This document shows positions 12,581 to 29,509 of a stretch of 35,459 nt of DNA, piece by piece. Numbering within the stretch: position 1 is the first letter of the stretch; each line of letters starts with the position of its first letter. Source of the DNA: an uncultured Clostridia bacterium (lineage in GTDB: Bacteria; Bacillota; Clostridia; Christensenellales; CAG-1252); contig CAMOTC010000006.1 in the NCBI GenBank assembly GCA_946625545.1, positions 1-35,459 on the forward strand. The letters run 5' to 3'. The notes under the pieces were generated by a model. That model did no database searches and was not told the DNA's origin. It saw only the letters and a list, made by a program, of their open reading frames with translations. The translations under genes and the position numbers were made by a program.

Positions 12581-13066
12581 ATGCCGTCTTATAAACTATG
12601 TCCGCGCTGTCAACTGAATTACATCCCCGAGGACGAGGATTACTGCGAAGTCTGCAGAGAAGAGCTTCGCGGGGTGCATTTTGAGGAAGATGAGGATGAT
12701 AACTACACCAAGACCTGCCCGAGATGCGGCGCGCTCATCCCCGATGACGCAGATTACTGCGAGAACTGCAGACAGGATCTCGAGGATAAGCTCGAGACAG
12801 AAGACGAGGATTGGGATAGCGAGGATCGCGTAGAGGACGGCGAAGGCCTCGATGCCGATGCCGAGGATACCCTCGACGAGGACGTCCTGCCCGACGGCGA
12901 GAGCTTTGGGGACGAGGAAGGCTTCGGTGACGATGACGACTTTGACAAAGAGGAGGAAGAGGAAAGCCCCTCCAATGACGACGACATCTACGGCTTCGAG
13001 ACAAACGTGGACGTGAACGACTACGAAGACGACGAAGACGACGAGAATAAAGATGACGACGAATGA
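12581..13066 (+). CDS. Double zinc-ribbon protein with a long acidic tail
   Basis: The product is 161 residues. Residues 1-65 hold two zinc-ribbon-like modules, CPRC...CEVC and CPRC...CENC, with CxxC pairs about 11 residues apart. From ~residue 68 to the end the protein is almost entirely Asp, Glu, Ser and Gly with no hydrophobic core, so it should be disordered and strongly negative. No membrane helix or signal is present. An AAGGAGGT site is 7 nt upstream of the ATG, and a good promoter and terminator flank the gene, so it is a single-gene unit and probably well expressed. The function is unknown; metal binding by the ribbons is expected. The acidic tail could mimic nucleic acid or bind cations, but that is speculation. 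Confidence 0.85.
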   Translation: MPSYKLCPRCQLNYIPEDEDYCEVCREELRGVHFEEDEDDNYTKTCPRCGALIPDDADYCENCRQDLEDKLETEDEDWDSEDRVEDGEGLDADAEDTLDEDVLPDGESFGDEEGFGDDDDFDKEEEEESPSNDDDIYGFETNVDVNDYEDDEDDENKDDDE

Positions 13067-13070
13067 TGAT

Positions 13071-13097
13071 AAGCAGCAGCGAGAGCCGCTGCTTTTT
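13071..13097 (+). terminator. Terminator of the zinc-ribbon gene
   Basis: AGCAGC (from 13072) pairs with GCTGCT before a run of T at 13093-13097. It lies a few bases after the stop codon. Confidence 0.75.
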
Positions 13098-13112
13098 GAT
13101 TAGGAATAAGAC

Positions 13113-13214
13113 GGCGACGCCGCGTGAAGCAGCCCCCTATGCGACCGTGAAGGACTTCCTGCGGAAGCGTGAAGGACGCGCTCCGCGTGCGTGAAGTGTC
13201 GAGCAATGCTCGAC
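13113..13214. repeat. Array of ~22-bp GTGAAG units with changing hairpins (array 1)
   Basis: GTGAAG occurs at 13124, 13147, 13169 and 13191 (spacing 23, 22, 22). Three units are followed by a small hairpin whose sequence differs from unit to unit: CTTCC-tgc-GGAAG (13155-13167), ACGCG-ctc-CGCGT (13176-13188) and GTCGAGC-aat-GCTCGAC (13198-13214). GGCGACGCC (13113-13121) precedes the array, and the first unit has no good stem. On the minus strand the conserved part reads CTTCAC, as in array 2 at 15826-15912. No gene is seen in 13067-13367. Confidence 0.75.
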
Positions 13215-13242
13215 GCTATGGAATAATTCAATTAAAATCAGG

Positions 13243-13296
13243 AGTAAAGGCTCCCGTAAAACGGCCGGTGAGGGGTCTTCTCCTTCGTCCTTTACT
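13243..13296. repeat. Three-way-junction-like folded intergenic element
   Basis: AGTAAAGG (13243-13250) pairs with CCTTTACT (13289-13296). Inside lie two hairpins: CCGT-aaa-ACGG (13254-13264) and AGGGG-tctt-CTCCT (from 13271, one G-U pair). The sequence resembles degenerate dispersed elements with AAAGGCTCCC and TGAGGGG blocks that I recall from gut Clostridia. That resemblance is from memory. Confidence 0.45.
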
Positions 13297-13321
13297 TGCG
13301 ATCCACCCATTATGATGATAA

Positions 13322-13354
13322 AAAGAGAGCGGCGAATCTCTCGCCGCTCTCTTT
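13322..13354. terminator. Terminator after the 13368-14798 lipoprotein, probably two-way
   Basis: A perfect 14-bp stem (13322-13335 with 13341-13354) has a 5-nt loop. It runs into TTTT on the minus strand just after the lipoprotein stop and into TTT on the plus strand. Confidence 0.8.
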
Positions 13355-13367
13355 ATCGTAGCCGATA

Positions 13368-14798
13368 TTACTTTTCGGAATCGGCCTTTGCCTCGGCTTC
13401 CTCCATCTTCGCCTTATCGTCGGCGGAGAGGAGTCTCACGGGGGTGATCGTCGCATCCTTGCCGGAATGGATATCGACCTCGGAGAGCTTGATGCGCGCC
13501 ATATAGTCGTAGTCGTCATCGAGGATAAAGTAGAAGTATCCGTCGAAATACTCCGCACCGGTGAAAGAGGTCATAAACTTCTCTTCCGTGCTGTATGCCT
13601 TGTAGACGTTGGACTCATTATCCATAGCGAAATACATGAGGATAGAGTCGCTATTCAGGAAGTAGAAGGTGTCATTCTCGATGCAGAGCAGAGTCGAGAG
13701 GTTGAGCGAGCCGTAGCTCTTGACCGCACGACCGTCGGTGTAGTAGATGCGAGCGTTGGAGCCGGTCTTGACCACGCCTTCCGCATAGCTGATGGGATAG
13801 AGCTCACTCAGCTCCTCGGTGGAGAGGCGAACCTCTTTGGACGCGAGGAATGAGAAATTTTTGTCCTGGAACTCATAGGCATAGGTGCCTACCACGGTGC
13901 CGCTCGAAGAGGTGCCGATGTAGGAAGTCTTGGTGTAGTAGATCGCGAGCTTCTCATCGGTCACTGAGGTCGCAACGATGGAGATATTGTAGGTGGTATC
14001 GGAATAGGTCTCCTCGTCGATCAAGGTCTTCTTGTTCTCGCCGCGGGGATCGCAGACGTAGAGGATATTGGAGTACTCGTACTCCTTCTCGGAATTTTTC
14101 GTATAAAGGACGTAATCCGCCACGGAGGTCGCCGCGCCGGGGGTGTACTCCTCATTCTTGGTGAAATAGACCGCGGTGACGTCCTCGTCGATGAGGTCGC
14201 CGGGCTTGTCCTCCTTGAACTTCTTGACAGCGAGATCCTTGCTGTAGAGCTTATTCTCCGAGCTGTCGAGGTAGATGAGAGCAGAGGAAGTGTAATGATA
14301 CTTGACGTCGGTGTCTTCAATATTCAAGATCACCTGCGTACCGGTACCGTCGATCTTGGTACGCATAAACTGCAAGGTGCTCGTCTGCACCGTACCCGAC
14401 CTGTCCTCTTCGGCGCTCGGGCTCACGTAATAGATCCATTCGCCATAGATAGAGAAACCCACGTTCTCGGAGTCAGCCATCACGCTCTTCGGCACGACGA
14501 TGGTGTAGTCGTCGCCGATGGTGCCGTCCTCCGCATAGGATACGCGAACGATCGCGCCCTTCGTGACGTTGCCGAACCAGTTCTGCTTGCCACTATCGGT
14601 CAGATAGCCCGAATAGCCGTTCACGAAATAGAGATAGCCGCCCTGCTTGACCACAAGTCCGCCGTTGCTCTCGACGGTGGCATTCGGATCGCCGCCCGAG
14701 ATAGCGTCGGCTTTATAGCTCTCGCAAGCGAACGTGGCTAAAAGCACGCAGGCGAGCAAGGCGATCGCAACTATTGCTAAAATAACTTTTTTACGCAT
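13368..14798 (-). CDS. Lipoprotein, probable beta-propeller (DUF5050-like)
   Basis: This 476-residue protein has a signal peptide of charged start, hydrophobic core and lipobox ending F-A-C at about residue 25. The body repeats short blocks such as 'GGYLYFVNGYSG', 'GEWIYYVSPS', 'YDGYFYFILDDD' and 'RIYYTDGRAV'. They are spaced roughly 45-60 residues apart and fit the WD-like beta-propeller pattern annotated as DUF5050 in Firmicutes surface proteins. No catalytic motif is visible. It is likely anchored on the outer face of the membrane; the ligand is unknown. The ATG has a GGGAGA site 8 nt upstream and a consensus promoter about 55 nt upstream. A 7-bp inverted repeat in the leader (14802-14808 with 14834-14840) could partly cover the ribosome binding site. 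Confidence 0.8.
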   Translation of the reverse strand: MRKKVILAIVAIALLACVLLATFACESYKADAISGGDPNATVESNGGLVVKQGGYLYFVNGYSGYLTDSGKQNWFGNVTKGAIVRVSYAEDGTIGDDYTIVVPKSVMADSENVGFSIYGEWIYYVSPSAEEDRSGTVQTSTLQFMRTKIDGTGTQVILNIEDTDVKYHYTSSALIYLDSSENKLYSKDLAVKKFKEDKPGDLIDEDVTAVYFTKNEEYTPGAATSVADYVLYTKNSEKEYEYSNILYVCDPRGENKKTLIDEETYSDTTYNISIVATSVTDEKLAIYYTKTSYIGTSSSGTVVGTYAYEFQDKNFSFLASKEVRLSTEELSELYPISYAEGVVKTGSNARIYYTDGRAVKSYGSLNLSTLLCIENDTFYFLNSDSILMYFAMDNESNVYKAYSTEEKFMTSFTGAEYFDGYFYFILDDDYDYMARIKLSEVDIHSGKDATITPVRLLSADDKAKMEEAEAKADSEK

Positions 14799-14854
14799 GA
14801 TATAATCTCCCGATTCTGTCTATACAAAGGAATAGATTATCCCTCTGATAAATA

Positions 14855-14883
14855 ATTATAGTATAAACAATCAAATATTGCAA
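14855..14883 (-). promoter_or_regulatory. Sigma-A promoter of the beta-propeller lipoprotein
   Basis: On the minus strand TTGCAA (14883-14878), a 17-bp spacer and TATAAT (14860-14855), about 55 nt before the ATG at 14798. Confidence 0.8.
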
Positions 14884-14930
14884 TTATTTTGCGCGACAAA
14901 ATCATACCGAGCCCATTTTTCGCGCGTTTT

Positions 14931-14946
14931 ACTCTCCAAGGAGAGT
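14931..14946. promoter_or_regulatory. 16-bp perfect palindrome upstream of the 14969 gene
   Basis: ACTCTCCAAGGAGAGT is a perfect palindrome 22 bp before the ATG. It is a candidate operator, or an RNA hairpin just upstream of the AAGGAGGT site. A 3-codon frame (ATG GGC AGG TAA) starts right after it. Confidence 0.4.
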
Positions 14947-14968
14947 ATGGGCAGGTAAGGAGGTATAT

Positions 14969-15706
14969 ATGCCATTTCGACGAATCTTACTCAAAAATCG
15001 ATCGGGAGTCCCCGTCGCAAGCGTCACCCTCACCGACAGGCGTCCCATCGTCACCCTGCCCGAGGGGATCGCGGCGCTCCTCATTCTAAGCGACGAGATC
15101 ACCCTTCCCGCGAGCGAAAGTACATTCGCCCATCCCGTGGGGAATAAGCCCTTCTCCCTCCTCGCGAGGAAGGATGGAGAGCTCCTCTTCGGCTCTACTC
15201 TCCCCGAGGAGGCTGCCGCCTTCGCGAAATGGAGGCTATTGACCGCCCTCGAGGAGAAAAAACGCACGCCGCTCGCCCCTACAGAGTCCCTTGAAAAGAG
15301 GGAAACGGACGAGGTAGCAGAGCAAGCGGAAAGCGCCGAGGACGCGCTCCGAAAAAGCACCGAAGAGATCCTCCAAAGCGAGCAAAGCTCACCTCTCGAG
15401 GAGAGCGAAACGTCAGACGGCTCGGGAGTCCCGAGCAAACTCGAACGAGCGGAAGCTCTCCTCCGAAAAGGGACGCCCTTCACCCTCTTTGACAGCGTAA
15501 TGCCGGGATCAAGGTGGGCGATCATCAAAGAGGACGCCGCGGAATACCTGATCGGGATCACGGGAGAGGGAGAGGAGAGTCGCATCCTCTTCGGCGTGCC
15601 CGGCGCGCGGGACTTTCCCCCTGACGAAGGGAGACTCTGGTCCTTCTTTCCGAGTGAGGAAAGCGAGGAGATCGGATACTTCCTGACCGAAGCAGAGGAG
15701 ATATAA
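14969..15706 (+). CDS. Uncharacterised protein with a charged middle region
   Basis: This 245-residue protein is not recognised by name. Residues 1-90 look globular and beta-rich ('VPVASVTLTDRRPIVTLPEG'). Residues ~95-150 are a Glu/Ser/Lys-rich linker, probably disordered or helical. Residues ~155-245 are globular again ('PFTLFDSVMPGSRWAIIK', 'YLIGITGEGEESRILFGVPG', 'GYFLTEAEE'). I have seen C-terminal regions of this kind in proteins of sporulating Clostridia, but I cannot attach a function. There is no signal peptide or membrane helix. An AAGGAGGT site 6 nt before the ATG decides strand and start; the 310-residue minus-strand frame over the same DNA is low complexity (Ser/Arg) and has no such site. 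The gene is divergent from the beta-propeller lipoprotein. Confidence 0.75.
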   Translation: MPFRRILLKNRSGVPVASVTLTDRRPIVTLPEGIAALLILSDEITLPASESTFAHPVGNKPFSLLARKDGELLFGSTLPEEAAAFAKWRLLTALEEKKRTPLAPTESLEKRETDEVAEQAESAEDALRKSTEEILQSEQSSPLEESETSDGSGVPSKLERAEALLRKGTPFTLFDSVMPGSRWAIIKEDAAEYLIGITGEGEESRILFGVPGARDFPPDEGRLWSFFPSEESEEIGYFLTEAEEI

Positions 15707-15741
15707 TGGGCGGCAGAGCGGGAAAAAGACGTCTCGGCTCC

Positions 15742-15763
15742 AGCATCACTCAAGGCTGATGCT
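15742..15763 (+). repeat. Inverted repeat after the 14969-15706 gene
   Basis: AGCATCA (15742-15748) and TGATGCT (15757-15763) can pair with an 8-nt loop 36 bp after the stop codon. No T-run follows. The rest of 15707-15825 shows nothing I can call. Confidence 0.45.
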
Positions 15764-15825
15764 CCAAAGTAAAAGCAAATACAAAACGAGCGCTCCCTTC
15801 CTCCCTTTTCTTTACGATCCGTAAC

Positions 15826-15912
15826 TGCGCGGACACGCGCAACTTCAGTTGACAAAGTCAAACTTCACTGTTCCACAGGAACAACCTCACTTTCCCATAG
15901 GGAATACTTCAC
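15826..15912. repeat. Array of ~22-bp CTTCAC units with changing hairpins (array 2)
   Basis: CTTCA(C)-type cores occur at 15843, 15863, 15885 (CCTCAC) and 15907 (spacing 20, 22, 22). The hairpins between them differ in sequence but keep pairing: TGCGCG-gaca-CGCGCA (15826-15841), TTGAC-aaa-GTCAA (15849-15861), TGTTCC-aca-GGAACA (15869-15883) and TTCCC-ata-GGGAA (15892-15904). This is the same design as array 1, in the opposite orientation in the window. Confidence 0.8.
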
Positions 15913-15926
15913 TCTAAAAAAAAGGA

Positions 15927-15958
15927 GGGCAAGCAGCCATTAGCTGCTTGCCCTTTTT
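15927..15958. terminator. Strong two-way terminator between convergent genes
   Basis: A perfect 11-bp stem, 15927-15937 with 15943-15953, has a 5-nt loop and T at 15954-15958 on the plus strand. On the minus strand TCC and then eight T follow. It serves the 14969 gene and the large lipoprotein gene ending at 15988. Confidence 0.9.
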
Positions 15959-15987
15959 GATCTTTTTCCAGCCTTATACAGCAGGAA

Positions 15988-29315: not shown

Positions 29316-29346
29316 CTAAACGTCAAAAAACAAGAAGTCGTGGGTG

Positions 29347-29499
29347 GATAGCTCTCCGCAATGATGCGACAGTGCGAGGGATATTCTCCCGCGCCCCAGA
29401 ACGCACCGTTACAGGATCGAGCGCATCCTTCGGCGTGACTTCCTTTCCCACCGCAGGCTAGCCTGCCCTGCGGCTTATCATAAGTCACGCGCCTCTATC
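29347..29499 (-). ncRNA. Lysine riboswitch (L-box) aptamer
   Basis: Read on the minus strand, P1 is GATAG (29499-29495) with CTATC (29351-29347). Inside are the hallmarks of the lysine aptamer: GAGGCGCG near the 5' end, the GTGGGAAAGG segment, GCCGAAGGATGCG in the junction, CTGGGGCGC, and the 3' CTGTCGCATCATTGCGGAG before P1 closes. GCGTGACTT / AAGTCACGC (29433-29441 with 29482-29490) forms the long second stem, capped by a hairpin with the palindrome GCAGGCTAGCCTGC. The aptamer binds L-lysine and should promote formation of the downstream terminator, lowering transporter expression when lysine is plentiful. Several conserved blocks agree, so the call is strong. Confidence 0.92.
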
Positions 29500-29509
29500 G
29501 AATGAAAGT

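Follow-up and report, generated by a model that had tools for sequence, protein, structure and literature searches.

We lean, though not strongly, towards reading the two intergenic hairpin arrays of the window (the whole stretch of 35,459 nucleotides analysed here) as copies of a dispersed, non-coding, REP/MITE-like repeat of Clostridia, whose maintained form would be folded DNA and which a putative factor would spread. What the analysis shows of the repeat is a patchy high copy number, a sharp left edge, presence or absence at equivalent sites, gain and loss of whole units, stems that change with their pairing kept, and tolerated mismatches that favour neither strand.

Anatomy and surroundings of the two arrays

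Each unit is made of a constant linker and a hairpin, with a stem of about 3–8 bp and a loop of 3–4 nt. In array 1, GTGAAG starts at 13124, 13147, 13169 and 13191, a spacing of 23, 22 and 22 nt. The first spacer, 13130–13146, is degenerate and has no clean hairpin; the good hairpins are CTTCC-TGC-GGAAG (13153–13168), CGCG-CTC-CGCG (13175–13190) and GTCGAGC-AAT-GCTCGAC (13197–13217), followed by the tail GCTATGGAATAATT. The same sub-type was also found at two other loci, L040:3383-3452 and L317.

Array 2 carries GTGAAG on the minus strand, CTTCAC on the plus strand. Of its four cores, the first and third are GTGAAG, while the second, GTGAGG, and the fourth, CTGAAG, are degenerate. The hairpins are TTCCC-TAT-GGGAA, TGTTCC-TGT-GGAACA, TTGAC-TTT-GTCAA and TGCGCG-TGTC-CGCGCA. 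The final hairpin, TTGCGCGTGTCCGCGCAGTT, is common to the locus L046:71-156. Direct re-reading returned the coordinates and anatomy that the earlier note had given for both arrays.

Table 1 Features of the window around the two arrays.
Feature	Position	Strand	Remarks
Gene, 161 aa double-zinc-ribbon protein	12581..13066	+	acidic tail; Pfam DZR 6.5e-9
Intrinsic terminator of the zinc-ribbon gene	13070..13098	+	upstream of array 1; arms AAGCAGCAGC/GCCGCTGCTT, then T-run
Small hairpin GGC-GAC-GCC	13113..13121	+	ahead of the first core of array 1; direct reading
Array 1, sub-type B	13124..13217	+	four GTGAAG cores; linker CGTGAAGGA
Gene, 476 aa	13368..14798	-	convergent with the zinc-ribbon gene; conserved across the GTDB family; no Pfam family above cut-off
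Gene, 245 aa	14969..15706	+	fast-evolving; no Pfam family
Array 2, sub-type A	15826..15912	-	linker GTGAAGT; four hairpins, loops of 3–4 nt
Terminator hairpin	15926..15960	-	AGGGCAAGCAGC/GCTGCTTGCCCT and T-run; on the minus strand, 15 nt separate its end from array 2's first core
Gene, 1070 aa	15988..19200	-	convergent with the 245 aa gene; no Pfam family

Array 1 folds with z = −3.9 on the plus strand and −3.3 on the minus strand; array 2 with z = −4.4 on the plus strand and only −1.2 on the minus strand. Single GTGAAG words are not enriched in the window (19 versus 15 expected), and properly spaced pairs occur 3 times versus 0.02 expected.

Convergent genes flank each of the two arrays. Gene context was taken from codon-scored gene calls, calls from open reading frames only being dominated by spurious ones. 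An assignment of the 161 aa product as RNA polymerase delta, suggested by its acidic tail, was rejected because Pfam shows a zinc ribbon.

Both arrays do lie beside terminators, as the earlier note said, but this does not extend into a rule: a same-strand terminator stands at most 60 bp upstream in 12 of 107 arrays, against 5–10 for the other sides and strands. With no clear excess of adjoining terminators, terminator-targeted insertion of sub-type A was rejected. The array hairpins themselves were likewise rejected as intrinsic terminators, for a linker without a T-run comes after each of them.

Pairing is kept while the stems change

That the arms differ while pairing is kept proved to hold far beyond chance. 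In the re-dealt-arm test, Watson-Crick pairing across the 152 unique spacers of sub-type A was 0.890 versus 0.612 (sd 0.015); the corresponding values were 0.864 versus 0.620 for type C and 0.824 versus 0.416 for the Gut-1 type. Hairpins with an identical stem and a different loop form 196 pairs. Selection of the folded form, as proposed in the earlier note, hung on an excess of paired spacers and on further arrays in relatives; since both are present, the proposal came through this test.

Among 2407 stem pairs, single non-Watson-Crick pairs are G·U in 18 cases and A·C in 19, a small count. As the two are equal, no strand preference is seen; an RNA constraint acting on one strand should favour G·U there. 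Terminators as a control for this mismatch test are ambiguous, because many of them act in both directions.

Copy number, distribution and sites

A scan of this and related genomes, as the earlier note had advised, found GTGAAG-hairpin-GTGAAG 40 times in this draft genome versus once for a reversed-pattern control. The copy number is 121, 75 and 55 in relatives, 121 being the highest among congeners, and 0 in other congeners. In a scan of public genomes, 81 loci carry clostridial titles and the spacer is paired at 74 of them, versus 2 of 37 other loci; arrays plus pairing are confined to Clostridia in that scan. The linkers seen, GTGAAG(T), CGTGAAGGA, TGAAT, TGAAAT, GTGATAT and TTGATAT, are invariant and lineage-specific, and the architecture is fixed across hundreds of copies.

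In 35 copies in the relative G014, information stays near 0 through every base that precedes the first GTGAAG: the left edge is sharp. Shared words are not in excess in their flanks, and no target-site duplication, as expected of a MITE from a DDE-type element, was detected, though duplications shorter than about 5 bp would escape; movement was not observed. At one orthologous site this genome (G000) has an array, G012 and G004 only a terminator, and G005 other repeats. At another, this genome again has an array, G005 one on the opposite strand and G003 one with the TTGATAT linker; G012 and G009 have none.

Arrays occur between convergent, tandem and divergent genes, in both orientations. The role at RNA 3' ends put forward in the earlier note is thus unsupported as a general rule; of its three options (a bound protein, such an RNA role or a mobile ssDNA element), it is dispersal or mobility that is strengthened most, by the sharp left edge, the orthologous presence and absence, and the patchy copies. 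At tandem-gene sites the GTGAAG strand is antisense in 39 cases versus 17, by ad hoc gene calls and with linked copies included; this bias could reflect transcription and speaks against our preferred reading.

Neighbouring arrays in many Clostridia form 41 convergent inverted pairs versus 1 divergent. This frequent arrangement was missed in the earlier note, as was the existence of a relative in Rfam, Gut-1. A larger repeat of about 480 bp has no plasmid relative and no Rfam match above cut-off. Literature searches by core sequence and by intergenic repeat or hairpin returned nothing relevant.

Relation to Gut-1

Gut-1 RNA (Rfam RF01706) was catalogued in 2010 by Weinberg et al., proposed as an expressed non-coding RNA and described as human-gut-only (PMC2864571). 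Array 2 matches it at 15837–15914 on the minus strand with 35.4 bits (E 1.7e-5), below the gathering cut-off of 50 bits, and yet aligns over all 77 positions of the model (1–77), with three hairpins and short conserved linkers. Another copy in this genome (G000:C28:2397-2478) scores 52.0 bits, above the cut-off, which many copies in relatives also exceed, those at the locus L191 with 52 and 51 bits; array 1 has no match at E ≤ 5. Gut-1 hairpins are joined by a (G)UGAAAU linker, where array 2 has GTGAAGT and array 1 CGTGAAGGA; Gut-1 matches themselves include GTGATAT linkers. The window arrays are relatives of Gut-1, which in our preferred reading is one linker-type of the same superfamily.

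Gut-1 itself is dispersed, with 20 or more matching places in eight genomes of the order (about 22 candidates scored), and it is multi-copy elsewhere across the class too. A unique hairpin of 8–18 bp abuts 59% of sampled Gut-1 copies versus 3% in the control. Comparison of orthologous Gut-1 copies shows the gain or loss of one entire unit, or compensated changes in two pairs. Described as a human-gut-only RNA, it occurs here as multi-copy, often inverted repeats across Clostridia, and its branch now resembles a dispersed repeat of the REP type more closely than one gene for a small RNA.

Search for a mobiliser

The Y1 transposase domain (PF01797) has 0 matches in G000, G005, G012 and G014, of which G014 is 100% complete and the others 75–81%. 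It is not commoner in Gut-1-rich genomes (3 of 13) than in Gut-1-free ones (5 of 13). Mobilisation by IS200/IS605 or RAYT was rejected on this absence from the high-copy genomes tested and this lack of association.

Reverse transcriptase (RVT_1, PF00078) is absent from the carriers G014, G016, G017, G028, G136, G148, G079, G074, G161 and G112, and shows no association (3 of 13 Gut-1-rich versus 2 of 13 Gut-1-free genomes). An origin from a retron, a DGR or a group II intron derivative was rejected on these grounds. A CRISPR array was rejected as well: the repeat is only 6–8 bp and the spacers are palindromic, where repeats of 24–48 bp and non-self spacers are expected.

Discussion

REP, BIME and REPIN repeats are high-copy extragenic palindromes with inverted doublets (PMC3733652, PMC3116915). 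The arrays share with them the high copy number, the inverted pairs, the patchiness between related genomes and a constant unpaired tag at the hairpin foot, here GTGA... However, the tags are GTGAAG, TGAAT, GTGATAT, TTGATAT and TGAAAT instead of GTAG or CGTC, an array holds several different hairpins instead of one conserved palindrome, and no Y1/RAYT gene accompanies them in the high-copy genomes tested.

In our preferred reading, the recognised form would be a folded single DNA strand, on the lagging strand or in a cruciform. A putative factor, possible in view of the constant linker, would read the linker beside the hairpin foot and spread the repeat, by analogy with RAYT for REPs. If only the shape is read, the stem sequence would be free to drift, and stems may be kept perfect partly by template switching, in which one arm serves as the template for its partner. 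Counting against this reading are the negative searches for a mobiliser among Y1 transposases and reverse transcriptases, the target-site duplications and movement that were not seen, and the strand bias at tandem-gene sites; the mismatch evidence, too, comes from few pairs and has an ambiguous terminator control.

In a mostly mutational origin, hairpins would be created and made perfect by quasi-palindrome correction and template switching, and their folding would be under little selection. Such an origin would fit the nearly perfect stems, the rare and symmetric non-Watson-Crick states and the long unique leading hairpins. Published work describes how template switching can give perfect stems, renewed with compensated changes (PMC8794818), but it covers RNA genes and a mutation process, whereas here the repeat is dispersed and has a fixed linker. 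Invariant lineage-specific linkers and an architecture fixed in hundreds of copies are left unexplained, and we judge this origin very improbable. Quite improbable, too, is a BIME-like role, in which a DNA-binding protein (gyrase, a nucleoid or a segregation factor) would bind sites set periodically along the duplex, with cruciforms absorbing supercoiling between convergent genes. Convergent genes do surround both window arrays, and REPs have been tied to supercoiling (PMC3733652); however, stems of 3 to 8 bp vary the phasing of the linkers, many copies lie between tandem genes and many relatives have no arrays.

A structured non-coding RNA, whose single-stranded linkers titrate an RNA-binding protein or which protects mRNA 3' ends, is unlikely, albeit the better of these alternatives. 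Sponge RNAs have regular single-stranded linkers between their hairpins, which a transcript of the arrays may resemble. The strong covariation, the strand bias at tandem-gene sites and the original proposal for Gut-1 (PMC2864571) also argue for it. Against it stand the dozens of copies scattered in either orientation through every gene context, G·U not in excess over A·C, sharp-edged copies, empty orthologous sites, and convergent pairs, which would place both linker strands in one transcript, able to pair together.

The dispersed DNA repeat that we prefer can be taken further, if only tentatively and on a reading that we rather doubt as a whole. The arrays may form a mobile superfamily in which nothing is recognised but the shape and the linker of the lineage (GTGAAGT, CGTGAAGGA, TGAAAT, TGAAT, GTGATAT or TTGATAT). 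The full element would consist of two inverted, convergent arrays, with its start flush at a unique long hairpin, and could refold with the linkers of its two arms pairing. The class of enzyme moving it would be something other than a Y1 transposase or a reverse transcriptase, and Gut-1, on this view, a DNA element.

If true, an orphan Rfam 'sRNA' family, 16 years without a function, would be re-filed as a dispersed DNA repeat, and its annotation and testing would change. The variety of linkers hints at a recognising factor with repeatedly changed specificity, and co-occurrence could trace a candidate. With hundreds of hairpins in one lineage that keep their pairing despite turnover, the repeat offers a natural case that helps to tell selection for folding apart from correction by template switching.

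Two hairpin arrays related to Gut-1

The two arrays of the window are real and not due to chance, and they are related to a catalogued, unexplained family, Gut-1 (Rfam RF01706). Direct reading confirmed both at the positions claimed in the earlier note, with their GTGAAG/CTTCAC cores. The lone GTGAAG core is not enriched within the window; core pairs at the array spacing are (3 versus 0.02 expected). The spaced pair also recurs beyond chance across the draft genome G000 (1.45 Mb, 81% complete), where GTGAAGN{13,19}GTGAAG has 40 matches and its reversed-pattern control 1. In canonical form the unit reads GTGAAGT-[T..A stem]; array 1 represents a sub-type with linker CGTGAAGGA, further examples of which lie at L040 and L317.

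Locations of the arrays and neighbouring features (G000, the genome of the window; other G numbers, related genomes; L numbers, individual loci)
Feature	Location	Strand	Description
Array 1	window 13113-13217	+	four GTGAAG cores, spacing 23/22/22 nt
Array 2	window 15826-15912	GTGAAG on -	four cores, two degenerate; four clean hairpins, loops 3-4 nt
Lysine riboswitch	window 29341-29505	-	78.9 bits
Site 1			gap between zinc-ribbon gene (161 aa, Pfam DZR) and 476 aa gene
Site 2			gap after 245 aa gene
TTGATAT-linker arrays	L331 (G003:C182), L450-L455
Type-C double element	L374, L377, L379 and others (G008)		pair of arrays with TGAAT linker, converging on TTATGGAT-N6-ATCCGCAA
~480 bp dispersed repeat	L313 about 1000-1480 (G012)		holds hairpin array; ends near GGGGGAATCGCAACCCCCACC...AAAAGAAAAGTGCC
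Convergent array pairs	L102, 3845-4055 and 7848-8042		two complete pairs; IMG/VR contig classed viral
TPP riboswitch	L438:1218-1307 (G014)		two tandem arrays lie ~85 nt upstream of it

Using a permissive Rfam scan, array 2 matches RF01706 over the full model at 35.4 bits (cut-off 50), and array 1 gives no match. Another copy in G000, outside the window and with linker GTGATAT, reaches 52.0 bits, above the cut-off, as do two elements of a goat MAG (52 and 51 bits). Gut-1 was first reported as a non-coding RNA candidate, from human-gut sequences only (PMC2864571). We found it in 48 of 200 genomes of the order, with one E. coli control matching below cut-off, and in 61 of 391 genomes sampled across the class, where zero control genomes matched at a stricter limit. 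In each of eight genomes of the order at least 20 places match Gut-1, copy numbers being lower bounds with ~22 or ~11 candidates scored per genome; many matches form +/- pairs ~100 bp apart.

Pairing is kept while sequence changes

As a control, right arms were dealt out again to left arms of the same length, a shuffle that breaks the true pairs but preserves composition and shared sequence. The earlier note's reading that pairing persists despite changing arms is borne out in 152 unique spacers of sub-type A (linker GTGAAGT, that of array 2) from five genomes: Watson-Crick pairs make up 89.0% of positions versus 61.2% when re-dealt (sd 1.5, maximum 65.4%), and 68% of stems are fully paired versus 21%. 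Pairing likewise exceeds the re-dealt value in type C (linker TGAAT; 0.864 versus 0.620) and in Gut-1-type arrays (0.824 versus 0.416). The note had also proposed a scan for further arrays in relatives, and these occur at up to 121 matches per genome.

The loop is the most variable part: 196 hairpin pairs have a common stem and differ in the loop alone, whereas in 45 pairs a single change creates a mismatch and in 26 the difference is a compensated pair. Single internal non-Watson-Crick states are infrequent, with 18 G·U and 19 A·C among 2407 pairs. An A·C mismatch reads as G·T on the complementary strand, so this equality gives no preferred strand. RNA helices as a rule tolerate G·U and reject A·C, yet the two are equal here; on this moderate evidence, with small numbers and a terminator control that is not clean, the stem constraint looks DNA-level or templated, and not that of a one-strand RNA.

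Turnover is shown directly by two orthologous Gut-1 pairs: in L467/L470 one whole unit has been gained or lost, and in L474/L478 the leading stem differs by two compensated pairs. At site 1, G000 has an array, G012 and G004 have just a terminator in a short spacer, and G005 has other repeats. Site 2 holds array 2 in G000, an opposite-strand array with different hairpins in G005 and an array with TTGATAT linker in G003; no array is present there in G012 or G009. The same gaps have thus gained, or lost, arrays independently. Among 20 genomes of the family, the TTGATAT type occurs in G003 only and the TGAATTG type in 17.

Dispersal and orientation

Copy number is patchy, from 0 to 121 matches per genome within the GTDB genus; most genomes compared are draft MAGs, whose assemblies repeats break. 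G012 shares an identical 2.2 kb stretch with the public record 'Christensenella sp. UBA3770' (Christensenellales), which puts G000 in the same neighbourhood. The 100% complete relative G014 has 75 matches in ~35 arrays of a single four-hairpin design. When 35 of its copies are aligned on the first core, upstream information is near zero right to the last base before it, which indicates that one array design, sharply bounded on its left, has copies at unrelated locations; the downstream signal stops ~16 nt past the tail GTTGYGG. No target-site duplication of about 5 bp or longer was detected in these 35 copies. Some arrays of G005, G012 and G000 are enclosed in the ~480 bp repeat, which has other copies at L319, L308, L323, L315, L034, L295, L292, L291 and L305; no plasmid relative of it was found. 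Short ATTCCGC or TTAGGAA runs adjoin many arrays (L294, L044, L041, L043, L372-L374) and are a second tandem-repeat habit of array-bearing genomes.

Where two GTGAAG arrays of a public Clostridia genome are neighbours at most 300 bp apart, they are convergent in 41 cases, divergent in 1 and same-strand in 3. The GTGAAG and CTTCAC linkers of convergent pairs are able to pair across arms, and the predicted fold of one whole goat-MAG element adopts this pairing. The type-C double element of G008, ~250 bp long, has several near-identical copies. Paired spacers track taxonomy, being present at 74 of 81 loci whose titles are clostridial versus 2 of 37 others. The two array pairs of L102 are oppositely oriented, ~3.8 kb apart, and this contig could be prophage or host DNA. 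In tandem-gene contexts of G000, G005, G012 and G014, called from codon-scored ORFs, the GTGAAG strand is antisense to co-directional flanking genes 39 times and sense 17 times; these counts include linked copies and the excess is only a hint.

A long, site-unique hairpin usually lies flush with the start of the Gut-1 element: taking the best copy per sampled genome, the stem score is at least 8 in 59% versus 2.9% of control positions, and the signal is lost once the test point is moved at least 12 nt upstream. These Gut-1 stems are often 13-18 bp and perfect, and take in the element's first C or CA, partnered by G or TG. A T-run of at least 4 is present in 7 of 16 Gut-1 leading hairpins, so some are possibly terminators and others not. 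Sub-type A of G014 has a weaker trend (23% versus 1%), which is absent from G000, G005 and G012. The leading hairpin may reflect a preferred target or may belong to the element itself.

A possible mode of spread

The arrays are dispersed, begin at a sharp left edge, maintain their fold, turn over by units and carry lineage-specific linkers. By analogy with RAYT acting on REPs (PMC3116915, PMC3733652), a factor would recognise the linker beside the hairpin foot in single-stranded DNA, and template switching may assist the renewal of perfect stems (PMC8794818). The likeness to REP/RAYT is functional only, the array tag being neither GTAG nor CGTC. We rejected Y1_Tnp as mobiliser: the high-copy genomes G000, G005, G012 and G014 lack it, and it is no commoner in Gut-1-rich (3/13) than in Gut-1-free genomes (5/13). 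Reverse transcriptase (3/13 versus 2/13) was likewise rejected. The mobiliser may be extinct or carried elsewhere. As far as the literature searched shows, it is new that Gut-1, filed as an RNA, and the sister linker types act like DNA repeats that are dispersed and often inverted.
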